A stretch of DNA of 40,974 nt from Verrucomicrobiales bacterium (lineage in GTDB: Bacteria; Verrucomicrobiota; Verrucomicrobiia; Verrucomicrobiales; V1-33): positions 1-40,974 of the forward strand of contig JAGNEJ010000039.1 in the NCBI GenBank assembly GCA_018003315.1, written 5' to 3'. The notes under the pieces were generated by a model that was given only the letters and a program-made list of their open reading frames with translations, was not told the DNA's origin and did no database searches. A program made the translations under genes and the position numbers. This document shows, piece after piece, positions 5,007 to 39,553 of this stretch (its first letter is position 1; the number at the start of each line of letters is the position of its first letter).

Positions 5007-5080
5007 CATCCGAAATTCAGGAATGCCGGAATTCAAACGCCGGTGACAGTCGCGGGAAACATGCCATATTCTCCCGAGCC

Positions 5081-6103
5081 ATGAACCGTCTCTTCCTCTT
5101 CTCCGGCATTTCCTTCCTCATCGGCGCAGCACTCGGCGCATTTTTAATTTCCCGCCAAAATGCGGCCGAACAGGAACGCTGGCAGGCCAAAGTCTCACAG
5201 TTGGAGGAAAAGCTGGCAGGCTCCCCGGCCTCCGCCGGAAAACACTTGGCAGTGAAAGCCGCCCGGCCTGACCATTCGGAGACGAAATCTGCCGAGGGGG
5301 CATCGTCCCCCAAGATGGCCGTCTTTGGTGCCACCACGCCGGGACCCGAAGCCATGAAACTGGCGGAAGAGTGGCGGCAAAAAATGCGAAAAAGCCGCGA
5401 GGAAAAAAACAAACTCAAAGTGGACGAACGGCTGGCAGCGCTGCGCGGTCGGCTCCATCTGACCGCAGAGCAGGCTGAAGCCCTGAAGCCGCTGCTGGCA
5501 CGCATGCTGTCCCGCGCGGGAGGAATCGATCTCCTCAACGACAACCTCAGCGGCGACCCAAAAGTCGATTGGAGCATGGATGCCATCAAGCAACGGCAGG
5601 AAAAAGCCAGGGAGGACCGTGAAGCGGCCGAACAGGAAATGCTGACCAGCCTGACTCCGGAGCAGCGCCAGGCCTACGAACAATGGAAGGAGGAGGAACG
5701 AGCCAACCGGCTGGAAATGCGCGCCAATCAAGACCTCACCGCACTGCAAAGCCAGTTCACATTAACGGCAGAGCAAAAGGACAAAGCCTTTGCCGCCTTT
5801 TCAAAATTAGCCGCAGACGAGGGGGAGACTCCTGCAGTGCCTTTCGGTGATCCGGCTGCGTTCACGAAGCGCCGGGAGCAGCGCATCGACGCGATGAAGG
5901 ACATTCTGACGCCCGAACAGTTGGCCGTTTACCAGAGAAATGCCGGCGGCCCCATCGTCAACATCGGCTTCGACGGAATGGACGACTTCTTCATGGATGG
6001 AGATCTCATTCCCGGCAGCGCCGCCGTGATCGCAGAGCCCGGCAGTGCCAACACCCCGCCGCTGCCACCGTCCCCGCCACCGGCGGAACTCACCGGAGAG
6101 TAG
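5081..6103 (+). CDS. Membrane-anchored LTxxQ-repeat (Spy/CpxP-like) protein
   Basis: A 340-residue protein with one N-terminal hydrophobic segment (FLFSGISFLIGAALGAF, about 5-22), so probably anchored with its body outside the cytoplasm. The rest is highly charged and predicted helical. Four LTxxQ motifs occur at about 127-131, 191-195, 228-232 and 276-280, alternating LTAEQ and LTPEQ, which suggests duplication of a two-motif unit. LTxxQ defines the Spy/CpxP family of periplasmic chaperones and stress sensors, but those are about half this length and not membrane-anchored. The C-terminus is acidic, then Pro-rich. A possible promoter just before the start (GTGACA near 5043, TATTCT at 5067) would give an almost leaderless mRNA and is weak. 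Function is inferred from the motif only. Confidence 0.7.
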   Translation: MNRLFLFSGISFLIGAALGAFLISRQNAAEQERWQAKVSQLEEKLAGSPASAGKHLAVKAARPDHSETKSAEGASSPKMAVFGATTPGPEAMKLAEEWRQKMRKSREEKNKLKVDERLAALRGRLHLTAEQAEALKPLLARMLSRAGGIDLLNDNLSGDPKVDWSMDAIKQRQEKAREDREAAEQEMLTSLTPEQRQAYEQWKEEERANRLEMRANQDLTALQSQFTLTAEQKDKAFAAFSKLAADEGETPAVPFGDPAAFTKRREQRIDAMKDILTPEQLAVYQRNAGGPIVNIGFDGMDDFFMDGDLIPGSAAVIAEPGSANTPPLPPSPPPAELTGE

Positions 6104-6145
6104 CCGGCTTCCGCCTGCCGGAAATGCTTCTGTTTTCCCGATCTC

Positions 6146-6985
6146 ATGCCTGATTCCAGCAGTCCGGTCGGCGTTTTTGACAGTGGCGTGGGCGGCTTGT
6201 CAGTGCTGCAGGAACTGCGCCGTCTGCTGCCATTGGAGAATTTCATCTATGTTGCTGACAGCGGTCAGGTCCCATACGGAAACAAGCCACCGGCATTCAT
6301 TTTGGAACGCAGCCGGACGCTGACCCGGTTCCTGGTGGAATGCGGTTGCAAAGCGGTGGTCATCGCCTGCAATACCGCCACCGCCAGCGCCGCAGCCGCC
6401 TTGCGACGTGAGTTTTCAGACATCCCGGTCATCGGCATGGAACCAGCCGTAAAACCCGCGGTTGCGGCCACCAGGCGAAAAATCATCGGAGTGCTGGCCA
6501 CCGTTGGCACATTGCAAAGCGCCCGGTTTGCAGCCCTGCTGGATCAATTCGCCGCGGAAGTCCAAGTCATCACGCAACCCGCTCCAGGGCTGGTGGAATG
6601 CGTGGAAGCCGGGGATCTGACCTCCGATGCGACGCGATCGCTCGTCAGCAGTTTCGTGTCTCCCCTGGTTGCCCGGGATGTGGATGTGATCGTGCTGGGC
6701 TGCACGCATTACCCCTTTCTGCGCCCGGTGATTCAAGAGTGCGCCGGGCCCGGCGTCGCGCTGATTGATACCGGCGGGGCGGTGGCCAGGCAGGTGAAGC
6801 GACGGCTGGGAGAATTCGACCTGGATCGAAAGGACGGGCAACCGGGCACCGAGAGGTTTTTCACCACGGGTTCGCCGGAGCACACCGCTGCCGCCGTCCG
6901 CATTCTGTGGCCCGCCAGCGTGGAAATCGATTCCCTGACTGAAATCGCGCTCCGGCGCACGGCAACGGCCCCCAAAACATCCTAA
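6146..6985 (+). CDS. murI: Glutamate racemase
   Basis: A 279-residue cytoplasmic enzyme that makes D-glutamate for peptidoglycan. GVFDSGVGGLSV (D12, start of the active site), the first catalytic cysteine in ACNTATA (C75) and the second in VLGCTHYPFL (C186) are all present and correctly spaced, so it should be active. The block VADSGQVPYGNK is also typical. It lies 42 bases after the LTxxQ gene; the gap contains a short inverted repeat (CCGGC 6104 / GCCGG 6117) of doubtful meaning. The peptidoglycan-recycling ligase Mpl is encoded convergently about 1.3 kb downstream, so two steps handling D-Glu-containing murein lie close together. Confidence 0.97.
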   Translation: MPDSSSPVGVFDSGVGGLSVLQELRRLLPLENFIYVADSGQVPYGNKPPAFILERSRTLTRFLVECGCKAVVIACNTATASAAAALRREFSDIPVIGMEPAVKPAVAATRRKIIGVLATVGTLQSARFAALLDQFAAEVQVITQPAPGLVECVEAGDLTSDATRSLVSSFVSPLVARDVDVIVLGCTHYPFLRPVIQECAGPGVALIDTGGAVARQVKRRLGEFDLDRKDGQPGTERFFTTGSPEHTAAAVRILWPASVEIDSLTEIALRRTATAPKTS

Positions 6986-6998
6986 CTAGACCGACAGC

Positions 6999-8054
6999 AT
7001 GTCCATGACCAAACCCACCCAGCCTGTCCACTGTCCCAACTGCGATCTCGTGTTCTATCCATCCGTGGAAAATCCGGACCAGGTCGTCCAGTGCCCCGCA
7101 TGTTTCATGCGGACGCTGCTGTCATCGTGCCGACCCGCCGCCGAGCCAAAACTGGAGTTCCCCGAACGCTGGGTCACAGAGGCGGACGAAACGGAGGCGC
7201 GCCGCCAAATCGTCCGCGGCAGGCAGGGAAAATTCCTGCTCGCCGCAGCCCTCGGGGTGGTGGCCCTGGCAGCCCTGCTGCTCGTGCGTTACCTGCCGGA
7301 AATCCACCAGACGCCTTCCGGTGCCGACACCGCGGGAAATTCTCCCGCGGAAGTGGAAAAACAAAAGGCACTCGCCGCCGCCACCGCCCTGGCAAAAACC
7401 GCCCTGGAAGCGCCGGACTGGCAGACGCTGCTCCACAGCGTGCGCAAACCGGACCACGTGCGCCCCCTCATGGAGTGGTACTACAAACACCGGACGGGAG
7501 GCTATGTTCCCTATCATATCCAACGGATCAAAACGGGCATCTATCAGGCGTCCAATCCGCCGTCCGTCGTCGTCAAACTGGCAACCGCCGACAGCAGGAT
7601 GCTGGATGTGGTGGTGGAGCAGACCTCTGAAGGCTGGAAACTGGACTGGGAAGCGTTCTCCAATGTTCATGGCATTCGCTGGCGCTTGTTTCTCAGCCGG
7701 GAAAAGGAATTTTCGGATTCGCTCATCGTTCCCGTCCGGGTGGCGCGCCTGCCACTCAGCCTGTTGACTTCCGGGTTTTACTCCAGCATCCAGGCCGATC
7801 CTGCCGCCACGAAGTCTGCTGCGCGCCTCTTTGTAACCGATCCCGAAGCCGAATACGCCGCCGCCATTTTCCCGGCAGATGCTCCGTTGGCCGCGGAATT
7901 GCTCTCGGCGAATGAGGAGGAAAATGTGCGGAAATTTGTGGTCGAAGTTCGCCTGCGGGGAACCGATCCCGACCAATACCCGCCGTGCGTTGAAATCAAG
8001 CGCATCCTGCAGCATGGGTGGGACATGCCGGAGGTGACTGAGTTGCCCAAGTGA
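6999..8054 (+). CDS. Zinc-ribbon, single-pass membrane protein of unknown function
   Basis: A 351-residue protein with three visible parts. Residues 12-35 carry two CPxC knuckles (C12/C15 and C32/C35), forming a small zinc ribbon on the cytoplasmic side. A transmembrane helix follows at about 78-97 (LLAAALGVVALAALLLV). The C-terminal 250 residues are soluble and presumably outside the membrane, with beta-rich pattern and a WYYKHRTGGYVPY segment; I do not recognise a family. It begins 13 bases after murI, so probably shares its transcript. The cytoplasmic zinc ribbon plus single membrane helix resembles the architecture of the kinase at 37187-39553, without a kinase domain. No function is proposed. 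Confidence 0.75.
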   Translation: MSMTKPTQPVHCPNCDLVFYPSVENPDQVVQCPACFMRTLLSSCRPAAEPKLEFPERWVTEADETEARRQIVRGRQGKFLLAAALGVVALAALLLVRYLPEIHQTPSGADTAGNSPAEVEKQKALAAATALAKTALEAPDWQTLLHSVRKPDHVRPLMEWYYKHRTGGYVPYHIQRIKTGIYQASNPPSVVVKLATADSRMLDVVVEQTSEGWKLDWEAFSNVHGIRWRLFLSREKEFSDSLIVPVRVARLPLSLLTSGFYSSIQADPAATKSAARLFVTDPEAEYAAAIFPADAPLAAELLSANEEENVRKFVVEVRLRGTDPDQYPPCVEIKRILQHGWDMPEVTELPK

Positions 8055-25329: not shown

Positions 25330-28296
25330 TCAGCGGACTCTGAAAAACATGCGGTTTGACGGCCCGTTGAGCGGAACTGGGCTCTTCATTTCCGGATGCG
25401 GAAACCAGGAATTCAGATCCGGCGAGGTTTCCAGCGACAGACCCGGATCCAGCCAGTAAAACAGGCTGGCGTCAGACTGCGGCAGGATTCCCACACCACC
25501 GCTGGAGGAGGACTGAAAGCTCACGGACAGCTTTGCATCCATGCCCATGTCGCCGGAGGAGGCTCCATTCTGGTGGACTTCGATCGCGACTACATTGGAC
25601 AGCGGGGCGGCCCGCAGCGCGGGCAGGGAGACGCCGGTGAGGGACAATGCGTGATAGGTCGATTCTGCAGAACCGTCCAGATACCTAGAGGACAACTGGT
25701 CGTAATAGAGCGTCCCGCCCGGATTGGTTCCCGGGTCCAGTCCCCAGGAGGTGGGACTGACTCGGACGCCGTTGACATAAACCGAGGCCCCATCGTCGGC
25801 GAGGCATTCCAGGTTGAGCGTTTTCACCAAGGCCGGATCCGCCACCGTGAAGGTTTTGCGGAAGTAGGCGGTGATGGGGCGCGTGCCGGAGGGAAACGTG
25901 GTGGCCAGCGTGATTCCAGTAACTGAACCCCACCCAAACGGAGCCGTTCCGGTGCTCCACGATGCCGTCTCCACGAAATCCGGCGATGTCCAGGATCGGC
26001 TTCCGGCATCCAGCGGCGGCCAGGGAGCATTGTGATCCACAGGGTTCTGGGCCGCGGAATGATACCGCCACCCGGCAGCACCCCGGGCGATGTAAACCGT
26101 GTCCGGGGGCGGACCAGACGAGGCTGGAAAATAAACCAGCGGCGTTCCCGTTATTTGCGCATTGGCTGGCGCGGACAATGCAACCTGAACGAAATTCAGA
26201 TCGTTGGGAATCACCGGAGCGGCGAATATTTTGACGGTTTCGCCCTGTTCAAAACTCAGCACTCCGCTGGCGATGGTGCTGGTGGCCGTGGCATCGACAC
26301 TGGTTTTGCCAATGGCCTTCCATGTCAGGCTCACGGGCAGTGAGGAAAAGGTGCTCAGCCGCACGGTGAAGCTGGCCGGGAGATTTGTCAGGATGTCCTG
26401 GCGCACCGCGGTGGTGAAGTCGGCTCCCACCGCCGACCCGGGCACAGGCATGAAGGCGGCCAGTTGAGCGCCGTCGGATGCGGCATTCCACAGGGAGTTG
26501 CCGGAATCCTCCGCTCCATTTTGCGCGGCGAGGTCCGCCGCCTTGCTGACCTTGGTTCCGGTCATGGTGAGCTTGTTGCCGGAATCGTTCCAGGTGGAAA
26601 ACTCCTTCGCCCAGGTGTCATGGAAGTAGTTGTAGAGGCAGAATGAGTCCTGCACCGTCAGGGTTCCGCTGTACTGGCTGGTTCCGGAACCGTTGCTCCC
26701 GGAATTGTTGCCGTAGTTGTCGCCATAGCGGGCCCCCACCATGCAGCCGATCATCGCGCAGTTGTCCACCACGGATAGTGGTCCGCCATAGCCGCATTCC
26801 ATGCCCTGACCGCAGTTGAAATGCACGCCGCGATGGGTTTCCGGCACCCTTCCCACGCCGGAATTGGAAAATGCCTCATGCGTGCAGTTTTCAAACCAGC
26901 AGTCCGTGCAGATGGTGGCCCCGGCGCCATCCGCGCCACTGTCGATTCCGTCATCCTTCACCCAGCCAATGACTGTTTTGCTCAGATGATAGGTTCGTCC
27001 GCTGCCCGGAACCAGATAGATGCCGTCATTGTCGGCATCGGCAAAGGCATCACTGTCGGCGTCCAAACCGGCATTGGTCATTTCCAGCAGGGCGCACTGG
27101 TGAATTTCCACGGTGCCTCCCACCTGCTCCCCTCCCGTGATGCAGCGCTGCGCGAGGGTGCGGGTCAGGTTGAGCGTTCCGTTGGTCATGGCAAAGGCGG
27201 AACCGCGCGTGTCGGCCAGGCCGGTGGGACCAACCAGCGCACAGTCTGTCAGGTTCAGAATGCCTCCGGCACTGACGGCGAAACACGGTTCTTCATTGCG
27301 ATGGGCCGCAAAGGAGTGGGGCGACTGGGAAAGCCAGTTCTGGTTGTTGCCGAACCGGCAGAAAATGGTGCCAGTGGCGCTCACCTGGGCGTTCTGGCCA
27401 CCGGATGTCGGCTGCAGCCAGAATCCCCCCCAGAGCTGGGTGGCCTGCTCCGGAACAAACACCACGGGGTTGGATACCGTGCCGTTGATCTGAATGCTGC
27501 CGCCGGGCGCCACCTCGATTTCCACACCCTGGGCGCATTTTACAATGGTGCCTGCGCCAATGGTCACGCTGCCCCCGGTGCCGACCGTCAGTTTGGATGT
27601 CAAATGAATGCGGGCGTTGCTGCCCCAGTCGTCGGCGGCGGCCACGGCACCGCCCTTGGTTGTGTAGGAAGTGGCGTTTTCGATGGTGATTGTCTTTGGG
27701 GCAGACAGCGGTCCGACTGCGGCATCATAGTTGAGCGCGCCGTCGCTGCTCTGGGGAGGCAAAATGGTTGACCCCCAGCCGCGTCGCAGCCGCAGGCTGG
27801 AAGCGGGGGCGCTGAACGCACTGACAATTCCATTGAGGAACAGGGGTTCTCCCGCGGTCGCACCGAAGGATGGCCCCTTCACCAGCCTGGCCACGACGGG
27901 CACCGGCAGGTCCTTGGGGAAGGCGGATGGCGCCATGACCAGCAACTGCCCGCTGGCGAAGGCGGAGGGAGCATCGTTCACGATCCGGTATGGGCGCATG
28001 GTGGGGATTCCATCTTCAGTCCCTCCCCGTTCGCTGTTTTTGATGATGAAACGATGCGTGATCGTGTTCGGCGTGGTGCCGGGGTCGGTAACGGTCAGCT
28101 CATGATAGCCAACCGATGTCACTGCCGTGGCTACATTCAGCGGAAATGCCGCTCCGTCGAGCGTGGCGGCGGTGCCGGTAGCGGTGATGGTGACGCTGGT
28201 GGTGTAACGTTTCCGGTCAAGGGGATTCGGCGTGACGCCGGCAACGGCGCAATGCGTGCTGACAAGCAGCAGGAGGGAGATCAGTCGGCGGTTCAT
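25330..28296 (-). CDS. Large secreted right-handed beta-helix protein
   Basis: 988 residues with a signal peptide (LISLLLLVSTHCAVAG, about 5-20). Residues about 230-560 show the repetitive hydrophobic/Asn/Gly pattern of a parallel beta-helix (for example GGSIQINGTVSNPVVFVPE, GGFWLQP, GGTVEIHQCALLEMTNAGLDADSD). A C-terminal jelly-roll-like module with VYVNGVRVS and NVVAIEVHQNG resembles a module common in planctomycete and verrucomicrobial secreted proteins, often after CotH or lamin-tail domains. The last 50 residues (SLETSPDLNSWF to FFRVR) are the tail typical of Verrucomicrobiota exported proteins. No CotH kinase domain is visible. Probably an extracellular polysaccharide-binding or -cleaving protein. 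Confidence 0.82.
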   Translation of the reverse strand: MNRRLISLLLLVSTHCAVAGVTPNPLDRKRYTTSVTITATGTAATLDGAAFPLNVATAVTSVGYHELTVTDPGTTPNTITHRFIIKNSERGGTEDGIPTMRPYRIVNDAPSAFASGQLLVMAPSAFPKDLPVPVVARLVKGPSFGATAGEPLFLNGIVSAFSAPASSLRLRRGWGSTILPPQSSDGALNYDAAVGPLSAPKTITIENATSYTTKGGAVAAADDWGSNARIHLTSKLTVGTGGSVTIGAGTIVKCAQGVEIEVAPGGSIQINGTVSNPVVFVPEQATQLWGGFWLQPTSGGQNAQVSATGTIFCRFGNNQNWLSQSPHSFAAHRNEEPCFAVSAGGILNLTDCALVGPTGLADTRGSAFAMTNGTLNLTRTLAQRCITGGEQVGGTVEIHQCALLEMTNAGLDADSDAFADADNDGIYLVPGSGRTYHLSKTVIGWVKDDGIDSGADGAGATICTDCWFENCTHEAFSNSGVGRVPETHRGVHFNCGQGMECGYGGPLSVVDNCAMIGCMVGARYGDNYGNNSGSNGSGTSQYSGTLTVQDSFCLYNYFHDTWAKEFSTWNDSGNKLTMTGTKVSKAADLAAQNGAEDSGNSLWNAASDGAQLAAFMPVPGSAVGADFTTAVRQDILTNLPASFTVRLSTFSSLPVSLTWKAIGKTSVDATATSTIASGVLSFEQGETVKIFAAPVIPNDLNFVQVALSAPANAQITGTPLVYFPASSGPPPDTVYIARGAAGWRYHSAAQNPVDHNAPWPPLDAGSRSWTSPDFVETASWSTGTAPFGWGSVTGITLATTFPSGTRPITAYFRKTFTVADPALVKTLNLECLADDGASVYVNGVRVSPTSWGLDPGTNPGGTLYYDQLSSRYLDGSAESTYHALSLTGVSLPALRAAPLSNVVAIEVHQNGASSGDMGMDAKLSVSFQSSSSGGVGILPQSDASLFYWLDPGLSLETSPDLNSWFPHPEMKSPVPLNGPSNRMFFRVR

Positions 28297-28599: not shown

Positions 28600-30339
28600 A
28601 TGAAAACAGCCAGACCATCCACTGCCCATCACCGGAAATTCCAGCCCCGTTGTTGCGCCCTGCGGGGTGCGCTTGCCATGGTTGCCTCTGCCGGTCTGCT
28701 TGCGGCGTCGGCGGGGGAGAAAAAATTCATCGAAATCGGCTGGGACATTCCGGACACCGCTTTCCTGCGCGAAAACTTCCGCGAAATGGAAAAGGAGGGA
28801 GCATTTTCCGGCGTTCTCTTCCGCGCCGAGGCGAAATCCGGCACCGAAACCACGGTCACCACGCTGAGCGGCTGGAACGGAGAACCTTGGGAGAAGGCAT
28901 GGTTCCAGCCCGCTCTGGACGACCTTCGGGCGTGTCGATTTGTGAAATTCACGGACAACTTTCTCCTCATCAATGCAACCCCGCAGCGGATTGAGTGGGA
29001 CAACGACGCAGGCTGGATGGCGCTTGAAGGCAAGGCGCGGATTGGTGCATGGCTCGCACAGGCGGGCGGTGCCAAGGGCCTCGCGCTGGATTTCGAACCG
29101 TACGGGCAGAATCAATGGAAGTTCGATCCCGCCAAGGGGAGGACGTTTTCGGAAACCTCGGCCCTGGCCCGCAAGCGGGGGGCCCAATTCGTCCGCGGAG
29201 TGGCGGCGGAAATGCCCCATGCGGTGCTGCTGACCTTTTTTCTGAACAGCGTGGTGCTGCGTGCGGGGCGTGCGGACGATCCCGACGCGATCCTCGCCCA
29301 GGAGCATTACGGATTGCTGCCGGCCTTTTTCAACGGAATGCTCGACGCAGCTCCTCCCGGCATGGTGATCGTGGATGGCTGCGAGAACGGCTATTACCTG
29401 GACAGCGTCGAAGCCTATCAGCGCGCTGCTCTGGACATGCGCTCGTGGAACGGCCCGTCCATCCGGCTGGTTGCACCGGAGAACCGCGCCAAATACCGGA
29501 TGCAGGTCCAGGCGGGATTCGGCTTTTATCTCGATATGTTTGTCAATGCGGAAGGCAACCAGTATTTTCGCGGACCGCTGGAGGGCTCGCGGTTGAAGCA
29601 TCTGGAGCGCAATCTGGCCGCGGCCCGCGACGCCGCCGACGAATACGTCTGGATCTACGGCGAGCAGTGCCGCTGGTGGAGCGGACTGGCGCGCGATAAA
29701 CCGTGGCGGGAGGAACCATTGAAGCAGACCGCCGGCAAAGGCCGCGCCTGGGAACAAACCCTGCCGGGAATCACCCGCACCATCGCATGGACCCGCAACC
29801 TGGAGGCCGCCGCACGCGAGGCATTGGCCAGGCAAAAGGCCGAAGGCACCGCCGCCAATCTGCTGGTGAATGCAGATTTCCGCGAACCGCCCGCAGCGGG
29901 AGCCGCCCTGCCGCCCCACTGGTCCGCGTGGCAGGAGGAAACGCACGCGACGGGAACATTCTCATGGGACGAAAAAACCGGTGAGGGGTCCGCACGAGCC
30001 GCCAGCGTTTTCGGCGGCTGTTTCATCCAAAAAATTGTCGCTGCACCCAGCGAAATCTTCGTGGTGCAGGCGCAGTGTCTGACCCGGGGCGCCTCCACTC
30101 CCAGCCTGACAATTCGGTGGCAGACCAATGACGAGAAATGGACGCATGAAGCGGACGACCAGACCTTCACTTTTGCTCCAGGAAGCGGCAAATGGACTCA
30201 GGCCTCGGGCGTTGCAACCGTCCCACCCGGTGCTGGCCGACTGGTTGTGCTGCTGTCCATCCGCGGCCAGCAGACCGCAGCGGATGGCTGTTGGTTTGAC
30301 AATGTGGAAGTCCACCGAATCAAGCCAGCAGGGCCTTGA
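28600..30339 (+). CDS. Secreted TIM-barrel-like putative glycoside hydrolase with C-terminal carbohydrate-binding-like domain
   Basis: 579 residues with a long basic N-region and hydrophobic signal core (LAMVASAGLLAASAG). The central part has alternating strands and helices like a (beta/alpha)8 barrel, with acidic strand ends GLALDFEPYGQNQW and MVIVDGCENGYY, and aromatic-rich WIYGEQCRWWSG, as in many glycosidases. The D-F-E pair in LDFEPYG is a candidate catalytic site. After about residue 425 a beta-sandwich-like region (NADFREPP, WQTNDEKW, GCWFDNVEV) resembles CBM-like ligand-binding modules. I do not recognise the GH family. The start codon sits directly after a perfect hairpin. Its 3' end overlaps the convergent DUF1501 gene by 20 bases. 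Confidence 0.7.
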   Translation: MKTARPSTAHHRKFQPRCCALRGALAMVASAGLLAASAGEKKFIEIGWDIPDTAFLRENFREMEKEGAFSGVLFRAEAKSGTETTVTTLSGWNGEPWEKAWFQPALDDLRACRFVKFTDNFLLINATPQRIEWDNDAGWMALEGKARIGAWLAQAGGAKGLALDFEPYGQNQWKFDPAKGRTFSETSALARKRGAQFVRGVAAEMPHAVLLTFFLNSVVLRAGRADDPDAILAQEHYGLLPAFFNGMLDAAPPGMVIVDGCENGYYLDSVEAYQRAALDMRSWNGPSIRLVAPENRAKYRMQVQAGFGFYLDMFVNAEGNQYFRGPLEGSRLKHLERNLAAARDAADEYVWIYGEQCRWWSGLARDKPWREEPLKQTAGKGRAWEQTLPGITRTIAWTRNLEAAAREALARQKAEGTAANLLVNADFREPPAAGAALPPHWSAWQEETHATGTFSWDEKTGEGSARAASVFGGCFIQKIVAAPSEIFVVQAQCLTRGASTPSLTIRWQTNDEKWTHEADDQTFTFAPGSGKWTQASGVATVPPGAGRLVVLLSIRGQQTAADGCWFDNVEVHRIKPAGP

Positions 30340-31843: not shown

Positions 31844-31879
31844 TCCCCCGGCTTCACCCTCCAGGGTGCAGCCGGGGGA
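31844..31879. other. Very stable hairpin spanning the gamma-carbonic anhydrase stop codon
   Basis: TCCCCCGGCT (31844-31853) pairs with AGCCGGGGGA reading 31870-31879 in reverse, then after one mismatch CACCC (31855-31859) pairs with GGGTG (31864-31868), closing on a four-base loop. Fifteen pairs, nearly all G-C. No T-run follows on the minus strand. It includes the last codons and the stop of the carbonic anhydrase gene and lies 73 bases before the DUF1501 start. Confidence 0.6.
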
Positions 31880-32393
31880 GTCCGGCCTTGTAGGCGGGCA
31901 GCAGGTCCACGTAATGATCCGCCCAGACCTTGATTCCCTGCTGCTCATCCTGACTGAGCCGACGAATGACTTTTGCCGGCGACCCTAACACCAGAGAGCC
32001 GGGTGGAATCACGGTGCGTCCCGTCACCAGGGCGCCGGCCCCAATGATGCTCCGCGCTCCAATCTCCGCTCCATCCAGGATGATCGCTCCCATGCCGATG
32101 AGCACCTCGTCATCCACCCGGCAGGCATGCAGTACCGCCTTGTGCCCCACCGTCACATTCTCTCCGACATAACATCCCATCTCATGCGACAAATGCACCA
32201 CGCAGCCGTCCTGGATGTTGGATCGTGCTCCTATCACAATTCGCTGGATGTCCCCGCGCACCACCGCCGCATACCAGACGCTGGACTCCGCCCCAAGCGT
32301 GACATCCCCCAGCACCACCGCCGTGGAAGCAACAAAGGCCGTGGGATCCACACTGGGTTGGACTGACAAATGGGCAGAGCTGGACAGGGGCAT
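31854..32393 (-). CDS. Gamma-class carbonic anhydrase family protein
   Basis: 179 residues of left-handed beta-helix hexapeptide repeats. The three zinc-ligand histidines are present: H67 in NIQDGCVVH, H84 and H89 in TVGHKAVLHAC, with the usual VVRGDIQRIVIG before them. The family (CamH, YrdA, PaaY) includes active carbonic anhydrases and proteins of unsure activity; the extra Glu loop of archaeal Cam is absent, so this is CamH/YrdA-like. It acts as a cytoplasmic trimer. It is divergent from HU across an AT-rich 143-base gap, in which TAAAAT (minus strand, 32404-32409) may be its -10. DUF1501 follows after 82 bases. Confidence 0.93.
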   Translation of the reverse strand: MPLSSSAHLSVQPSVDPTAFVASTAVVLGDVTLGAESSVWYAAVVRGDIQRIVIGARSNIQDGCVVHLSHEMGCYVGENVTVGHKAVLHACRVDDEVLIGMGAIILDGAEIGARSIIGAGALVTGRTVIPPGSLVLGSPAKVIRRLSQDEQQGIKVWADHYVDLLPAYKAGLPRLHPGG

Positions 32394-32454: not shown

Positions 32455-32483
32455 TTGACAGGAAATGGCTGAATCCTTACAAA
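32455..32483 (+). promoter_or_regulatory. Sigma-70-type promoter of the HU gene
   Basis: TTGACA (32455-32460, perfect -35), 17-base spacer, TACAAA (32478-32483, four of six to TATAAT). Predicted start near 32490 gives a leader of about 47 bases to the HU ATG. The surrounding stretch 32394-32490 is clearly more AT-rich than the rest of the window. Confidence 0.7.
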
Positions 32484-32536
32484 TTGGCAGTCAACACAAT
32501 GTTGATGCCAACAAACACTCAACCAAAAAAATCCGA

Positions 32537-32830
32537 ATGAACAAAGCAGAACTGATTGAAGCGGTGCAGAAAGCACTTGGCAAGGAAACGTCAAAGAAGG
32601 CCGCTACCGATGCCGTCGCTGCCGTGATTGACTCGATCGCCGCCGGCGTGAAGAAGGACGGAAATGTGCAGTTGATCGGCTTCGGCACGTTCAAGGTGAC
32701 GGAGCGCAAAGCCCGAAAGGGACGCAATCCCAAAACCGGCCAGTCGATGACGATCAAAGCATCGAAAAACGTGCGCTTTGCCGCTTCCAGCGCCCTGAAG
32801 GCCGCAGTGAAGAAGGGCGGCAAGCGGTAA
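32537..32830 (+). CDS. hup: HU family DNA-binding protein
   Basis: 97 residues, standard HU length. MNKAELIEAVQKALG, the helix pair DAVAAVIDSIAAGVKKDGNVQLIGFGTFKV, and the DNA-intercalating arm ERKARKGRNPKTGQSM with its conserved RNP proline are all present; the C-terminus is KAAVKKGGKR. HU bends DNA non-specifically and compacts the nucleoid as a dimer. The frame opens at 32465, but the family start is at 32537, which lacks a Shine-Dalgarno. It has its own promoter and terminator and so is monocistronic, as expected for an abundant protein. Confidence 0.97.
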   Translation: MNKAELIEAVQKALGKETSKKAATDAVAAVIDSIAAGVKKDGNVQLIGFGTFKVTERKARKGRNPKTGQSMTIKASKNVRFAASSALKAAVKKGGKR

Positions 32831-32931: not shown

Positions 32932-33540
32932 CTACAGTTTCTGCCGGCCATTGAGGGCGCGGAACAGCGTGAGTTGATCGGCTGATTCCAAACCGCCCCC
33001 GGCCGGCAATCCCTGAGCCAGACGGGAGACGGTCACACCCATTGCGCGCAGGGCGTCCGCCAGGTAATGGGCCGTGGCCTCGCCTTCGACATCGCTGCCC
33101 ACGGCCAAAACGACTTCCTGAACTCCGGTGCGCCGGATGCGGGTGAAGAGTTCTTCCACGCGCAAATTCTCAGGACCGATGTTTTCCAGCGGGCTGAGTT
33201 TTCCACCCAGGGCATGATAGAGACCATGATAGGCTCCGGTGCGTTCCAGCGGCAGAATGTCCGTGGCTTGCTCGACCACGCAGAGCAGCGCATGATCGCG
33301 TGCCGGATTTCCGCAAAGCGAACAGGCTTCGCCCCGAGAGGAAAAGAATCCGCAATCGACACAGGTGGCAACCGATTGCGCCGCAGTCGCAAGAGCGGCG
33401 GCCAGTTGTCCGGCAGAAAGCGCGGGACCGCGCAGCAGCCAGAGGGCGAGGCGTTCGGCACTCTTCGGTCCGATGCCGGGAAGCCGCTTCAACTGAAGAA
33501 TCAGTTGGCGAATCGGCTCTGGATAGTCAACCCTGGTCAC
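32932..33540 (-). CDS. recR: Recombination protein RecR
   Basis: 202 residues. The helix-hairpin-helix LPGIGPKSAERLALWLL, a C4 zinc finger (C60, C63, C73, C76), and the Toprim block LCVVEQATDILPLERTGAYHGLYHALGG, then GSDVEGEATAHYLAD with a Walker-like end, are all canonical. RecR acts with RecO/RecF in loading RecA on gapped DNA. Its GTG start (33538-33540) overlaps the stop of the upstream pseudo-cyclase (GTGA), so its translation is coupled to a signalling-type gene rather than to dnaX/YbaB, its usual neighbours. Confidence 0.96.
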   Translation of the reverse strand: MTRVDYPEPIRQLILQLKRLPGIGPKSAERLALWLLRGPALSAGQLAAALATAAQSVATCVDCGFFSSRGEACSLCGNPARDHALLCVVEQATDILPLERTGAYHGLYHALGGKLSPLENIGPENLRVEELFTRIRRTGVQEVVLAVGSDVEGEATAHYLADALRAMGVTVSRLAQGLPAGGGLESADQLTLFRALNGRQKL

Positions 33541-35441
33541 TTTTTCTTCCTGCGGTGCTGTTTCTTTCGTTTGCCAGCGGATTCCGGCGGCTGTTTCGCC
33601 TTGACCACGCGGGCCGCGCCGCCTTTGGCAGGATCCGGGGATGGGCCATCCGGTTGCGCCGCGGGCGATCCACCGGAGTCCAGCGCGGCGAAGAGATCGG
33701 GCTGTGCCGCAGCGGCATCGGCCGGTGCGGATTCCTCCCTGGCAGCAACGCTTTCAAACATGTCGCCAACCCTGCGTCCGCGTCCGAAAGATTTGCGCGG
33801 CACCACCGATTTGGAAAAGGTTTCCCGCAAGATTGGGGCCTTGCCCACCGGTGGCCGCGGCGAATTGAGGGCCCGGGTGACAAAGGCAGGCAGGCTCGAC
33901 AATGGTTGAGGTTCGGCCTGCACGGGTGGTGCTGCGGCCTCCTCTGGAGGAGGAGGCGTTGCTTCATCGGGCGCTGACACCGCTGCGGTCGTCGCTTCTG
34001 CATTGCCAGCCTCCGTCGGTTGGTTGTCAGGATTCTGTGGGGGCAATGGTGCGGCCACCGGGCGTTCGGACGGCGTGGCCGTCTGCTCAACTTCTGCGGC
34101 TGGCGGCACCGGGCTGGGGGCTGGAGCCGGCGCAGGGGTTGTCGGCGGCGGTGCCAAGGCAGCCTCCAGAAGTGCCGTGACCGGAACCTTGCCAGTGGCT
34201 GCTTTGGCGGTTGCAGGTTGCGGGACCGGCGTCGCAGGATCCGGCAGGCCGGCTGCCGCTGCTTCCAGGAAAAGCGCCAGCGTGACATCCTCCGTTCCAT
34301 CACGCGGTTCGCACTGTTGGAATTGCTCCAGAGCGGCGGCGGCATTGCCGGAACGCAGCAGTCCCACGCCTTGGGCAAAGCGTTCCATTCGCTCCCGCTG
34401 CGCCGGGAGTTCATCCATTTCCACCGCCGGGCAAAGCTCCATCAGATCCATGACCTCCTCCTCGGTGCCGACGATCATGCTGTCGATGGGACGAGACAGG
34501 AAACCGACGCCTGCCAGTGACAGGGTTTTCGCGTCCGTCAACACGCCGGTCAGCCAGGCATCGTTGGCGTCGGCCAAGTGGCGGCTGCGTTCCAGCACGT
34601 CGCCTTCGGTTTGGTATTCTCCGTTGACCAGGCCGCTTGCCGCCAGACCCTGACAGACCCCGATCCCGAAACGCAGCCGCCCGCCCCCGTTCGGATTGCG
34701 CTGCCCGACAAACTCCCGCATCATCCCCAGGAGCAGCAGTGCGGCCTGGCAGCCCTCCCTGACATCATTTTTGCCTTCCAGCGGAACGCCGAAGCACGCC
34801 TGAATGGCCTGGGTGGCACCGGGAAGCAGCAGCGCCCCGCGGGCCAGCAGTCCGGAAACAGCCCGCTGCCGGAACTCCTCCGCCAGCTTGAGCACAGCGG
34901 CGGGACCGATCAATTTTCGCACTTCCTGTTCATTCAATATGCGCAGGGTAATCACGACCACCGGGCGATTTTCGCACTGCAGATCAGGCAGCGGGCGGCT
35001 CTGGCGCAGCTTCTGCATCTGCTCCGCTGAAATGCGTCCGGAAAAAATGACCGGCAACTGCGCAGCAAGGGACAGCCGTGAGCGCCCCACCGCCCAGCCG
35101 ACGAGCCCTCCCAGCATCAGCGCGATGCTGGACGGAAAGGGATCGAAGCCGATCTTGTGGAGCGCCACGGCAGCGGACCCGCTGAAGCACAGCGCAGTCC
35201 CCGCCGCCATCAGGGAAGCCGCCCGAAGCGTCCCGGACACCGCATAGCCAATCCAGGCTCCGGCCACTCCGAAAACGGCAGCGCTGAGGTGGAGCACCCA
35301 TTCCGCCGGATTCCAGGCGGTTGCAGACATCCAGGGCAGAGCGGCCGCCCAGGCTCCGGTGGGGGCAACCCAGCGCAGACTGTCACCGACAAGACCTGCC
35401 AGCAGGCCAACAAGCAATGCAAAGAGCCACGGATGACGCAT
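33537..35441 (-). CDS. Membrane-anchored pseudo-nucleotide-cyclase (degenerate class III cyclase) with Pro/Ala-rich tail
   Basis: 634 residues from the ATG at 35441. Three to four N-terminal helices (about 5-120) precede a domain at about 160-330 with the class III adenylate/guanylate cyclase outline: VVVITLRILNEQE, ATQAIQACFGVPLE, RLRFGIGVCQGLAASGLV, GDVLERSRHLAD. The catalytic residues are gone: the first metal Asp is R167, the second (in GDxxMAxFG) is Q211, and the N...R transition-state pair reads E and H. A short helical region like a TPR (SGNAAAALEQFQQCEP) follows, then a Pro/Ala/Glu-rich linker (about 430-530) and a very basic end (KRKKQHRRKKK). It is probably a sensor or scaffold. The gene starts 32 bases after the ClpX-like gene and overlaps recR by four bases. 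Confidence 0.78.
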   Translation of the reverse strand: MRHPWLFALLVGLLAGLVGDSLRWVAPTGAWAAALPWMSATAWNPAEWVLHLSAAVFGVAGAWIGYAVSGTLRAASLMAAGTALCFSGSAAVALHKIGFDPFPSSIALMLGGLVGWAVGRSRLSLAAQLPVIFSGRISAEQMQKLRQSRPLPDLQCENRPVVVITLRILNEQEVRKLIGPAAVLKLAEEFRQRAVSGLLARGALLLPGATQAIQACFGVPLEGKNDVREGCQAALLLLGMMREFVGQRNPNGGGRLRFGIGVCQGLAASGLVNGEYQTEGDVLERSRHLADANDAWLTGVLTDAKTLSLAGVGFLSRPIDSMIVGTEEEVMDLMELCPAVEMDELPAQRERMERFAQGVGLLRSGNAAAALEQFQQCEPRDGTEDVTLALFLEAAAAGLPDPATPVPQPATAKAATGKVPVTALLEAALAPPPTTPAPAPAPSPVPPAAEVEQTATPSERPVAAPLPPQNPDNQPTEAGNAEATTAAVSAPDEATPPPPEEAAAPPVQAEPQPLSSLPAFVTRALNSPRPPVGKAPILRETFSKSVVPRKSFGRGRRVGDMFESVAAREESAPADAAAAQPDLFAALDSGGSPAAQPDGPSPDPAKGGAARVVKAKQPPESAGKRKKQHRRKKK

Positions 35442-35473
35442 GAAAAAATTCGAATTTGGAGGGAGCAAAGTCC

Positions 35474-37087
35474 TCAGCCAGCTTCACCGCTTTTTCCATA
35501 GGATTCAACCACGCGCCTGCTGATGTAGCCATCGGGATTGCGGACCGCGTCGGCATCCAGAACGAATGCCGTCTGGCCGGTGTTGCGGCCAATCAATTTG
35601 AGGGCGAACTGATAATCTTTGAACCGCCGGTCCAGGAAGTCCCCCGGGGTGCCGCTTTCCCGTTCCCATTGGCGCTGCAGTTCCCGCAACCCTTCCTGCG
35701 TGAATTCAAGCGTGATGTCATGCGTCTGAAGAAACGTGCGGCAGAAGGCTTCTGCCGCCTGCAGCACCGCCGGCGATGTCTCCTTCCCCGCCTGTTCGCG
35801 CAGCCGCTGCAGCACCGATTCCTTCTGGAATATCAGCTCGGCATCCACCCGAAGTTCACCCACCGAGGTGCCGGGCAGTTCGAATTTGAAATCCCGCAGC
35901 ATGGACTCGCAGACCGTGAGCAGGCCGCGGGCGCCGGTTTTTTCCATGGCGGCCCTGGAGGCGATTTCCCGCAGCGCCTCCTCCGTGAAGGTGATGCGGA
36001 TGCCATAGGCATTGAACTCCTGCTCGTATTGCCGGAGGATGCTCCCTTCCGATGTCGTCAGGATGTCGTAAATGTCCGCTGCCGCCAGCGGCTCGCACAC
36101 CACCCGCACCGGCAGGCGTCCGATGAACTCCGCCTCAAAGCCGTACTCGATGAAGTCCGCAGTCACCGCATGGCGAAACCACGCATCCTCCGAAGGGATG
36201 CCGGGCGACTCCTCATTGAAGCCGATGCGGCCCTGGCGCAGCCGCTGGCCGACGATTTTTTCCAGTCCGGAGAAGGCTCCACTGACGATGAAAAGGATGT
36301 TCCGCGTGCTGATCTTGGCCGGGCGCTGGCGTCCCTGCTGGAGGTCAAAGAATGCCTGCATCTGGCTCTGGATGTCATGCTGGCCGCGCAGGTTGACTTC
36401 CGTTTCCTCCATGAGCTTGAGCAGCGCCGTCTGCACGCCGCGTCCGCTCACATCGCGCCCCATCATGTTGCCCCGTGTGGCCAGCTTGTCGATTTCATCG
36501 ATATAAACGATGCCATACTCCGCCAGCGCCACATCGCCGCCAGCCTTGTGCACCAGTTCCCGCACCAGGTCATCGACATCGCCACCAACGTAACCGGTTT
36601 CGCTGAACTTTGTGGCATCGGCCTTCACAAACGGCACGCCGATGAGATCGGCCACATGTTTGACCAGATAGGTTTTGCCGACGCCCGTGGGGCCGATGAT
36701 CAGCACGTTTTGCTTGGCAAACTCGATCGCACCGCCCCCGTCGCCCTCGCTGTCCTTGACCCGCTGTTCGCGCAGGAACCTAGCATGGTTGTAGTGGTCG
36801 CACACCGCGATGGCCAATGCCTTTTTCGCCTCATCCTGCCGGATCACATACCGGTCGAGGTGGGCTTTGATCTGGCGCGGCGTGAGGCCGAAGTCGAAGA
36901 CGTCCGGCTTTTCCGGCGGGGTCTGCACCTCGTCAACCGGTGCGGATGCGGCAGCCGTGCCGCCTGTAAATGGATTCATCATCTCCACCCGGGATCCACC
37001 GAGACTGGACCGGAAAAGATTCTGCAACCTCCTGGCCAATTCCTCAGGGCTCCGCGGCGGTTTCTGATCATCGTCGTCTTTGGACAT
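35474..37087 (-). CDS. ClpX-like AAA+ unfoldase lacking the N-terminal zinc domain
   Basis: 537 residues. The core is ClpX: Walker A GPTGVGKT (132-139), Walker B VYIDEID (194-200), pore-1 loop GYVG (165-168), [18 protein letters not shown], the ClpP-docking IGF tripeptide (288-290), arginine finger in EFIGRLPV (R324), sensor 2 GARG (385-388). The C4 zinc-binding domain of true ClpX is missing; the first 60 residues are charged and then Ala-rich. About 125 extra residues follow the ClpX C-terminal domain (from about 411). The retained IGF loop suggests it can still dock on a ClpP ring. It lies between the kinase and pseudo-cyclase genes. Annotation pipelines may call it clpX; it is better treated as a paralogue. 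Confidence 0.88.
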
Positions 37088-37186
37088 GGTTATTGGGGAT
37101 TGGGGGGATTAAGCGGCCCAAGGCCGGGAAAAAACCGCCATCAGGTGGCGGACACTGGACCGCATTACGGCAAGAATTCCGGAAAA

Positions 37187-39553
37187 TCAAAATTCCACAT
37201 TCGGCTGCATCCGCTTCCAGCGGGCCTGGAAACCGCGCAGCTCCTTCGCCAGTTCATTGCCGCGCATTCCTGCATAAATGGTCTGCCCGGTTTTCAGTGC
37301 AAAGGCCACAACCTGTTCGCGACGGCGGTAGTATTCATCGGAGTCGGAAATTTTGTCTGCCAGCAGCGGGCGTTCCGCAATTTTAATCAGTGCCGGGGGA
37401 GGCATTTGCCCGTAGGGAATGACTGTCTCGCCAGCAGCACCGGCCACGCGCAGGGTGATGCCATCGCGGGTGGCAGCCACCACGGTTCCGACTTGGGGTG
37501 CCGCGCCCAGCCGTTCGATTTCCCCTTGGTAGCCGACGGCATCCCGGGAGACCTGCACCAGAAAGTCTTCCGCCTGCTGCCAGGTTAGGATTTCGTCCTG
37601 ACTCAACTGCTGCATTGCGGCGGACTGGAAGCGTTCCTTCTGCAGGCGCTGCACCGCCTGGTAAAATTTCATGCCTGCCGCCGCGGAGGCGGCCTCTGCA
37701 ACCGCAGCAGCCAGTTTTTTCGATTCCACCTTCTCCAGCTCGGCCTCGCGGGCGCTGGCCAGCTTTTGCGCGGCTTCCAGCTGGGCGTCCACTGCCTTGC
37801 CAAAGGCAGCCACCTCCGCCACCACGGCGTTTTTGACAGCGCCAGGCAGGTTCAGTCCCGCAGCGATGGCCGATGCCTTCTCCCGTGCCTGCTTTGCCGC
37901 TTCCGGGCTGACATTTTCCAATTGGAAGGAAGGCATGTCGGCCAGCAGTTTTAGATCGGCTGCCTGGGGCCGCACCAGTTCCTTATAGCTGTTGACCCAG
38001 GCGTGGGATGGTCCCGGCGTGGCGGATTCAAATGCCAGCAGCATGGCCCTGGCTCCGCGCCAGTCGCCCAACTGCCAGTTTTTCAGGCCCGCCGCCAGCA
38101 GGCCCATGGCCTTGAATGAATCCGTTGAAAACGCAGCCGCGGCACCCGCAGGCACCGGTCCGTCCTCGCCCAACACGCGGCTGACTTCGGCAAAAAATCC
38201 TGCCAGTTCACCCTCGCCGCTGGGAGGCATGCTGGCAAAAACGCTGCGCGCCTCGCTCTCCTTCGCCTGGAACAGCAGGCACAGTCCGTCGTTGAAGACC
38301 GCCCAGTTGGCCGTGGGCTGCGGAGAATTTTTCGCCAAGGTACCGAACTTTTCGCTGGCTTCGGGGAACCTTCCGCCGAGCAATGCATCGCGGGCCGCAG
38401 TGAACTGGGCGGAAACGGTCTTGTCGGATGTTGCCGATGGGTCCGTGTCGATCTGCAAAGCGGCGGCATCCTGCTGTTCCGGTCCGCGCACTGCCAGCCA
38501 GGTCCCGATCCCCGCGATCCCCACCAGCGCTGCGGCAATGCCCGCCTTGACCGGCCCGGAAAATCCGCCCGCCATCTGTCCGCGCCCGGAACCCGGCTTG
38601 GCCTTGCCTGGCAACTGCTGGGCATACTCCAGATCGGCAATCAGTTCGTCGTAGGATTCATAGCGGTTTTCCGGCTTGTTTTCCAGGCAACGCGCCAGAA
38701 TCGCCGCGGATTCACTGGAAATCAGCGAACGATCGCGATCGGAAAGTTTTACGGTCTGGGCTTTGATGACTTTCAGTTCCTCCAGGGAATTGGTGTCATT
38801 TTCGTAGGGCGGATGCCCCAGCACCGCATGGAAAAGGGACGCCCCCAGGCTGTAAATGTCGCTGCGGTGGTCCTCAACTCCGCCGTTAAGTTTTTCCGGC
38901 GGCACGTAGTAGGGAGTGGCCCAGATTTCGGTGTCGGTGTCCACATCCTTTTCAAACATGAGCGCCAGTCCGAAATCCACGATTTTCGCGGCCCCCTCTT
39001 CCGTAAAGAGGATGTTTCCCGGCTTTACATCCCGATGAATGAGGCCTGCCAGCAGCGCTGCCTTCAGTCCCCGGGCAGTGTCAATGGCGACCTCCAGCAT
39101 CCTGGCTTCTTCCACCCGCTGTTCCTTGCGAATCCAATCATCCAGGCTCCCACCGATCACCAGCTCCATGGCAATGTAAAAATAGCCCTGGTCTTTTCCG
39201 GAGCTGAACACCGTGACCACATTCGGGTGGCTCATGGCCGCAGTGATCCGGGCTTCCCGCTCGAACTGTGCCACGCGGTGTTCGTCACTCGAGCACTGCC
39301 GGTTCAGAATCTTCAGCGCCACTTCCCGCTTCAGCCCGGTATCCACCGCACGGAAAACCCGGCTCATCCCGCCGATTCCGATTTGTCCCTTGATCGCAAA
39401 CTGATCGAAGCTCGTCCGCACCCGAATGGAATCAGCACACTTTTCGCAGACAATCTTTGCATAGGGTTCGAAGGCCGTCACGTCGATGACCTGTCCGCAG
39501 TTCGGGCAGGCATTGAAGAGCCGGTTTTCGTCAGTCGGGTTGGTCGCATCCAT
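37187..39553 (-). CDS. Membrane Ser/Thr protein kinase with N-terminal zinc ribbon
   Basis: 788 residues. A zinc ribbon (C16, C19, C36, C39) precedes a Hanks-type kinase domain (about 50-310): glycine loop GQIGIGGMSRVF (57-68), ATP lysine in VALKIL (K81), catalytic loop HRDVKPGN (173-180), DFGLA (193-197), and activation segment ATPYYVPPEKL. A single helix follows (about 334-356), and about 430 residues face outward or the periplasm, helix-rich with Ala/Lys coiled-coil segments (about 600-660). All catalytic residues are present, so it should be active. It is first in the minus-strand cluster with the ClpX-like gene (99-base gap), pseudo-cyclase and recR, and is divergent from the GH128-like gene. 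Confidence 0.93.
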   Translation of the reverse strand: MDATNPTDENRLFNACPNCGQVIDVTAFEPYAKIVCEKCADSIRVRTSFDQFAIKGQIGIGGMSRVFRAVDTGLKREVALKILNRQCSSDEHRVAQFEREARITAAMSHPNVVTVFSSGKDQGYFYIAMELVIGGSLDDWIRKEQRVEEARMLEVAIDTARGLKAALLAGLIHRDVKPGNILFTEEGAAKIVDFGLALMFEKDVDTDTEIWATPYYVPPEKLNGGVEDHRSDIYSLGASLFHAVLGHPPYENDTNSLEELKVIKAQTVKLSDRDRSLISSESAAILARCLENKPENRYESYDELIADLEYAQQLPGKAKPGSGRGQMAGGFSGPVKAGIAAALVGIAGIGTWLAVRGPEQQDAAALQIDTDPSATSDKTVSAQFTAARDALLGGRFPEASEKFGTLAKNSPQPTANWAVFNDGLCLLFQAKESEARSVFASMPPSGEGELAGFFAEVSRVLGEDGPVPAGAAAAFSTDSFKAMGLLAAGLKNWQLGDWRGARAMLLAFESATPGPSHAWVNSYKELVRPQAADLKLLADMPSFQLENVSPEAAKQAREKASAIAAGLNLPGAVKNAVVAEVAAFGKAVDAQLEAAQKLASAREAELEKVESKKLAAAVAEAASAAAGMKFYQAVQRLQKERFQSAAMQQLSQDEILTWQQAEDFLVQVSRDAVGYQGEIERLGAAPQVGTVVAATRDGITLRVAGAAGETVIPYGQMPPPALIKIAERPLLADKISDSDEYYRRREQVVAFALKTGQTIYAGMRGNELAKELRGFQARWKRMQPNVEF

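Follow-up and report, generated by a model that had tools for sequence, protein, structure and literature searches.

In a 40,974-nucleotide stretch of DNA from a Verrucomicrobiales bacterium (assembly GCA_018003315.1, contig JAGNEJ010000039.1; hereafter the window), a gene that we call AAA encodes what, judged by its sequence and predicted structure, is a paralog of the ClpX clade whose ATPase motifs, pore-1 motifs and IGF-type loop are intact; at the C-terminus its family bears the small AAA+ subdomain a second time, in divergent form. We propose that AAA probably acts as a second ClpX-type hexameric unfoldase, an alternative to canonical ClpX that docks on ClpP and handles substrates of its own. 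The gene lies on the minus strand between genes for a serine/threonine kinase (KIN) and a membrane pseudo-cyclase (CYC), the latter followed by recR; this order is a recurrent chain and not an obligate module.

A ClpX-type core without zinc-binding domain and RKH loop

Throughout 81 sequences of the AAA family the Walker A and Walker B motifs, the GYVG pore loop and the sensor-2 GAR of ClpX are kept, the pore-1 loop reading TGYVG[GA]DV in 81/81. In a set of 48 sequences, sensor-2 residues A386 and R387 are invariant, as are G289 and F290 of the IGF-type loop, with I288 conserved at 90% at least. It is through such a loop that ClpX docks on ClpP. In our phylum sample of 144 genomes, 35 of which encode the C-terminal extension of AAA, the pattern [ILVM]GF was found in 33 of 34 members, the remaining one being without the anchor motif used for locating the loop. 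The closest PDB relatives of AAA are ClpX proteins, by sequence and by fold alike, and in the VIA fold comparison, whose alignments span about residues 65-433 of the AAA model and hence concern the core and not the extension, ClpX reached a Z score of ~34 over ~300-330 residues and HslU one of ~27. A FastTree tree of core regions united canonical ClpX in one clade (support 0.997) and placed 21 paralogs, together with one extra member, in a separate clade (support 0.849). This extra member, a second AAA-family copy in genome G125 (L161, G125:C42:150500-153500), is an open frame of 425 residues in which the C-terminal small domain has been lost, and it stands as sister to the members from the reduced genomes described below.

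With the two NCBIfam ClpX equivalog models, AAA scored below both cut-offs (NF003745, 339.4 bits for a cut-off of 359; TIGR00382, 310.6 bits for 370.75), and with the HslU model it fell short of the required 362.45 bits, at 196.9. Its match to the ClpX model begins at model position 60, and a CxxC..CxxC pattern was found in the first 70 residues of none of the 34 phylum-sample members (0/34), which marks the family as one without the N-terminal zinc-binding domain. The RKH loop is replaced by R(N/G)(P/Q).DIQSQM-like sequences in most of the variants listed for the 81 sequences, the string RKH occurring, wherever in the sequence, in 1 of the 34 phylum-sample proteins, and pore-2 reads DVSGRGVQ in the family as against DVSGEGVQ in the canonical ClpX of the same genome. 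The zinc domain and the RKH loop of ClpX are the textbook routes of substrate choice, and tags are read by loops of ClpX; since zinc domain and RKH loop have both been lost, ClpX adaptors and ssrA-type tags should not be read by AAA in the usual way.

The window's genome holds two more ClpX-like proteins without the zinc-binding domain (L003, 964-2460, 498 residues; L005, 403-2511, 702 residues), which carry an IGF-type loop and fall on a different branch of the tree from AAA. Together with canonical ClpX and AAA they bring the ClpX-type unfoldases of this genome to four, beside one clear ClpP and one weak match. Two ClpX-like loci, at 36-38% identity, were seen on viral contigs.

A second small AAA+ subdomain

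We regard the extension of AAA as a duplicated small subdomain because of a profile-profile comparison and an AlphaFold model. In hhalign the extension matched the protein's own small subdomain (residues 335-424) with a probability of 97.5% (E 2.2e-11); in a control run the same segment gave 97.8%, and probabilities did not exceed 0.3% for four other segments of the core or 2.1% for 20 versions with shuffled columns. In many genomes the extension profile detects the first small domain as well. The AlphaFold model, built on 48 sequences (mean predicted local distance difference test, pLDDT, 80.9; predicted template-modelling score, pTM, 0.66), shows the same succession of helices and strands twice, with pLDDT mostly at 90 or above in the extension. 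As read from the alignment, the TGAR sensor-2 motif is absent from the second copy.

Retention of the paralog in two reduced genomes

A match over the ClpX cut-off was present in 139 of the 144 phylum-sample genomes, making canonical ClpX near-universal. Two small genomes, G036 (915,884 bases) and G057 (917,278 bases), each complete and on a single contig, keep ClpP and the AAA paralog, the latter adjoining recR, and no canonical ClpX was found in either; a genus mate of 2.5 Mb (G271) keeps both ClpX types. Between G036 and G057 the paralog shows a nonsynonymous divergence (dN) of 0.10 and a synonymous divergence (dS) of 0.86 (dN/dS ~0.12), its extension 0.13 and 1.00 (~0.13), ClpP 0.04 and 0.75, and RecR 0.08 and 0.66. 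Such low ratios argue that, where canonical ClpX has been lost, purifying selection acts on the paralog and on its extension too, and these genomes make its partnership with ClpP likely but not forced. G067 and G086 likewise gave no ClpX match at 1e-60. A further genome without a canonical ClpX match, G054, was not used as evidence, being a draft of about 90 contigs with congeners (G042, G072) that have one.

The four genes of the cluster

A preliminary description of this DNA had reported a minus-strand cluster of a zinc-ribbon kinase, an unusual ClpX-like AAA+ protein, a catalytically dead cyclase and recR. The positions of the open reading frames bear this out (Table 1), with gaps of 99 nucleotides between KIN and AAA and of 32 between AAA and CYC and with a GTGA overlap of CYC and recR at 33540-33537; Pfam and NCBIfam searches agree with the identities given for the kinase, the AAA+ protein and recR. 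The interval assigned to the cluster, 33537-39553, does take in KIN, AAA and CYC; of recR it covers only the first bases, the body of that gene lying at 32932-33540. An alternative start of CYC, a TTG at 35468, is also possible.

Table 1. Genes and sequence features of the AAA cluster, in window coordinates.
Feature	Position	Strand	Remarks
KIN, serine/threonine kinase	37187..39553	minus	788 residues; Pfam Pkinase 6.6e-49
Terminator-like hairpin CCGCCA-CCTGA-TGGCGG, then TTTTTT	37135..37151	minus	between KIN and AAA
AAA, ClpX paralog without zinc-binding domain	35474..37087	minus	537 residues
Walker A of AAA, GPTGVGKT, residues 132-139	36671..36694	minus	identical in 80/81 sequences, GPTGCGKT in 1
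IGF-type loop of AAA, predicted to dock on ClpP, residues 288-290	36218..36226	minus	conservation in 48 sequences
First (canonical) small AAA+ subdomain of AAA, residues 335-424, with sensor-2 GAR	35816..36085	minus	
C-terminal extension of AAA, residues 425-537, divergent second small AAA+ subdomain copy	35474..35815	minus	hhalign and AlphaFold
CYC, membrane pseudo-cyclase	33537..35441	minus	634 residues counted from ATG
recR	32932..33540	minus	202 residues; GTG start overlapping CYC stop

KIN consists of a zinc ribbon (C16, C19, C36, C39), a kinase domain (residues 53-299), one transmembrane helix (~334-355) and, according to AlphaFold secondary structure, a C-terminal TPR-like helical region with a small beta domain. 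In 24 relatives the Hanks-type catalytic residues K81, H173, D175 and D193-F194-G195 are invariant, R174 is conserved at 90% or more, and the four-cysteine ribbon is invariant or nearly so; the transmembrane helix and the TPR-like helical region are likewise common to KIN relatives. The protein scored 248 bits over its kinase part with NF033483, the equivalog cut-off of which, 450, stands well above.

CYC begins with three to four hydrophobic segments (residues 1-120), continues with a degenerate class III cyclase domain (about residues 155-330), and ends in a TPR-like helix and a long Pro/Ala and Lys-rich tail. The window's CYC protein on its own matched no Pfam or NCBIfam model; 18 of 22 aligned relatives matched Guanylate_cyc (PF00211), and a PDB search with the family profile retrieved class III adenylate cyclases (best E 1.2e-30). 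Among 22 sequences that contain the domain, the first metal-binding aspartate is present in 5/22 and the second in 10/22, both together in 0/22, and the window's CYC has R and Q at these positions, so that the cyclase is catalytically dead by sequence, as had been suggested. The count of two membrane proteins also held, hydropathy revealing one hydrophobic region in KIN and three in CYC at the threshold used. The membrane region is common to CYC relatives, 16 of 38 of which have fewer than 320 residues and are mostly membrane-only or cut by a contig end; because many are short and membrane-only, the membrane part looks like the conserved core.

The recR product satisfies the RecR equivalog model (TIGR00615, 208.6 bits for a cut-off of 162.55). 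No other copy exists in the window's genome, and recR is single-copy in 19 of 20 genomes checked, with none found in one 86%-complete draft. In several genomes it sits on a different contig from KIN or AAA; we therefore treat it as positional, an ordinary single-copy recombination gene, and reject it as a functional partner.

Convergent with recR is an HU-family DNA-binding gene (32465-32830, plus strand), beside which lies a gene for a gamma-carbonic-anhydrase-like hexapeptide protein (31854-32393, minus strand) that scored below the curated cut-off; relatives of both genes occur, on opposite strands, in locus L067. Two large open reading frames of the window, at 25330-28296 (minus strand, 988 residues) and 28600-30339 (plus strand, 579 residues), matched no Pfam family.

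Recurrence of the gene order

We scanned the contigs of the best 80 of 457 AAA relatives, which are 52-58% identical to the window's protein and carry Verrucomicrobiota titles; these loci are the nearest relatives, and the sample is therefore biased. Order and strand are kept in many genomes, with full-length KIN relatives and recR flanking the AAA relatives, which is more than chance would give. A KIN relative adjoins AAA on the same strand in 33 of the 72 loci with enough upstream DNA, and a divergent kinase, not counted as KIN, in 7; on the other side, a CYC relative comes next in 34 and recR lies within 2 kb in 35 of the 63 loci with enough downstream DNA. After removal of 20 loci whose flank was too short on one or both sides, 60 remained, in which AAA was accompanied by kinase, CYC and recR in 11, by kinase only in 15, by CYC and recR in 14, by a divergent kinase with CYC and recR in 6, by kinase and recR in 2, by kinase and CYC, CYC only or recR only in 1 each, and by nothing in 9. 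Of the 33 loci with both flanks in which a CYC adjoins AAA, 31 have recR after it. The genes that the preliminary description had grouped are thus neighbours in related genomes too, in the 11 loci with all of them and the 2 more with kinase and recR.

The one divergent kinase scanned, in L062 (5538-7838, minus strand), joins a kinase to HEAT repeats and occupies KIN's place directly upstream of AAA, in divergent orientation; a different kinase is placed in this way in some other loci. Downstream of KIN-AAA in L061 (8131-10043) we observed a DNA-binding-only 6-O-methylguanine methyltransferase-like protein and a HAMP histidine kinase, clusters of which recur in L067 and L083.

In an order sample of 143 genomes, AAA is present in 93 and KIN in 114; 90 have both, 3 AAA only, 24 KIN only and 26 neither (Fisher p 9.5e-12, kinship ignored). 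When both are present, they lie within 8 kb of each other in 36 genomes, on different contigs in 50 (some of them maybe through assembly breaks) and far apart on one contig in 4. By family, near pairs amount to 32/43, 3/39, 0/5 and 0/2, plus the window itself. In the phylum sample the C-terminal half of KIN was detected in 13/144 genomes at 1e-4 and in only 3 at 1e-10 or better. Near AAA in the 34 phylum genomes besides the window's, a strong full-length KIN was found in 1 (G066), CYC in 3 (G013, G066, G125) and recR in 4 (G013, G066, G036, G057), and most AAA genomes of other orders have AAA without a close KIN, CYC or recR.

Nine other genomes of the window's own family were sampled, and AAA is missing from every one. 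In a genome of the same genus (G162, locus L182), KIN (4390-6819), CYC (6843-7970) and then recR follow one another on one strand with no AAA between, and in the family member G145 CYC adjoins recR with KIN elsewhere. KIN, CYC and recR therefore persist without AAA, as AAA elsewhere persists without them. We reject a strictly conserved or obligate four-gene module in all three samples, given G162 and, among 143 genomes, the 24 with kinase only and the 3 with AAA only; nor is the earlier picture of one dedicated module with DNA repair attached supported, given the lack of AAA in the other sampled family members and a kinase near it in 1/34 phylum genomes.

Between KIN and AAA the window contains a terminator-like hairpin with a script-computed energy of -9.6 kcal/mol. 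None as strong was found by the same test in 35 other KIN-AAA gaps, the best of which reached -6.6 (L041), and in five loci (L035, L039, L061, L067, L083) the two genes overlap or lie 1 nucleotide apart. The region as a whole is not enriched in such sites over shuffled sequence (10 as against 9.7), and the separation of KIN from the other three genes by this hairpin is for that reason suggestive only.

Discussion

We envisage the following model for AAA. The hexameric ring would dock on the cell's ClpP through its IGF-type loop and thread substrates via the GYVG pore, and the choice of substrates may fall to the extra small domain, to the short helix at the N-terminus, or to both. In Verrucomicrobiales and some Chthoniobacterales-like genomes, AAA appears to sit in an inherited KIN-AAA-CYC-recR chain. 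Its two membrane proteins could plausibly act as regulators at the membrane, KIN as a cytosolic kinase anchored by a single transmembrane helix beyond which lies a TPR-rich part, and CYC as a scaffold whose cyclase domain is dead. Since the chain is frequently interrupted, control of AAA by KIN or CYC is put forward only as a possibility.

Several observations weigh against this model. Taken alone, the extension found no ClpX in the PDB by sequence (best matches Hsp70s, E 0.004 or worse) and none in Pfam (single-member noise), and against canonical ClpX it matched the right place weakly (42.6%). ClpP occurs in 12/12 genomes tested, and its co-occurrence with AAA is thus uninformative. Beside a true ClpB, both G036 and G057 encode another ATPase resembling ClpA, ClpC or ClpB (831-841 residues, below every cut-off), so ClpP in these genomes need not depend on the paralog. 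The links of kinase and pseudo-cyclase to AAA are inconstant.

As to the cluster, a conserved neighbourhood that shares inherited order and no function is a serious contender, to which we give a little less than even odds, and it is compatible with the role preferred for AAA itself. Breaks of the chain take many forms, most other orders have AAA without its companions, and the flanking genes in relatives are housekeeping genes, including those for a pseudouridine synthase and a lipoyl synthase. Harder to reconcile with order alone is that near kinase-AAA pairs are always on the same strand (36/36), in loci whose AAA proteins share no more than 52-58% identity with that of the window, and that recR so regularly follows an AAA-adjoining CYC.

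As to AAA, the paralog might be a remodeller independent of ClpP that activates, disassembles or moves particular clients, its IGF-type loop being a relic or serving another partner. The loss of the zinc domain and RKH loop and the gain of a new domain point to altered handling of canonical substrates, and the other Clp ATPase of both reduced genomes could serve ClpP. Against this, family members throughout the phylum have, with few exceptions, retained the loop with which ClpX docks on ClpP, those of the two genomes without canonical ClpX among them, and we consider a ClpP-independent role rather doubtful.

A signalling-proteolysis module, in which KIN senses across the membrane and phosphorylates AAA and/or CYC, with CYC recruiting the unfoldase to the membrane, strikes us as improbable. 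Such a module would fit the recurring gene order, the presence of the kinase in 90 of the 93 order-sample genomes with AAA and the joint absence of both in 26/143, as well as the tight KIN-AAA spacing in five loci. It fits poorly with the 24 of 114 kinase genomes that are without AAA, with the same-genus KIN-CYC-recR chain, with the 54 of 90 genomes that have kinase and AAA but not near each other, though 50 of these have them on different contigs and assembly breaks may account for some, and with the hairpin in the window.

Although AAA is missing from the nine other family genomes, origin of the contig from a contaminant is scarcely credible and is rejected by composition and synteny, since the window's halves have a base composition typical of their own genome (tetranucleotide distances 0.065 and 0.071, compared with 0.068-0.176 for 16 other stretches of that genome, 4 of 20 having been left out for masking or length, and 0.15-0.77 for 11 foreign loci), the same KIN-CYC-recR order exists in the same-genus genome, and the genome has no second copy of recR or KIN.

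Speculatively, and with little confidence in the whole, one may extend the preferred reading to a ClpP-docking ring with two small subdomains and its own substrate code, which displaced canonical ClpX in reduced genomes and is tuned at the membrane of Verrucomicrobiales by a kinase with zinc ribbon and TPR region together with a scaffold bearing a dead cyclase. What is the relevance of such a protein? A widespread paralog without the zinc domain and the RKH loop, in which the subdomain linking the subunits of the ring is present once more, raises the question of what these parts are for, and the two tiny genomes that keep only the paralog make that question testable. Kinase control of AAA, if true, would amount to a kinase-regulated branch of ClpXP, a link that did not turn up in literature searches. 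Our searches on ClpX paralogs, verrucomicrobial ClpX and kinase or cyclase connections to ClpX likewise brought up neither this gene set nor a ClpX with two small domains.

Comparison with known systems

With canonical ClpX, whose gene adjoins clpP in the window's own genome (L002), AAA shares the AAA+ core, the Walker motifs, the GYVG pore-1 loop, the IGF-type loop and the sensor-2 GAR; it differs in having no zinc-binding domain and no RKH loop, in the exchange of E for R in pore-2, in its second small subdomain, in scores below the cut-offs and in its separate clade. HslU, which carries an I-domain, is like AAA an AAA+ unfoldase of the same superfamily without a zinc-binding domain, and AAA reaches 197 of the 362 bits required by the HslU model.

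A divergent extra ClpX of Myxococcus xanthus, ClpX3, is described as having neither the N-terminal zinc domain nor the RKH motif, as being encoded alongside a canonical clpP-clpX pair, and its deletion as weakening growth at 36 deg C (PMC11423568). The likeness to AAA lies in the shared lack of these two parts and is one of description; in the portion of that paper drawn on here, a second small domain is not mentioned for ClpX3 (PMC11423568).

The CYC profile matches the catalytic domain of class III adenylyl cyclases (6fht, 2w01, 3r5g), from which CYC differs in that the metal-binding aspartate pair is absent in 22/22 and a number of its relatives are membrane-only. KIN shares its kinase domain with PknB-like serine/threonine kinases and is set apart from them by the zinc ribbon in front, the TPR-like region after the transmembrane helix and a score below the equivalog cut-off.

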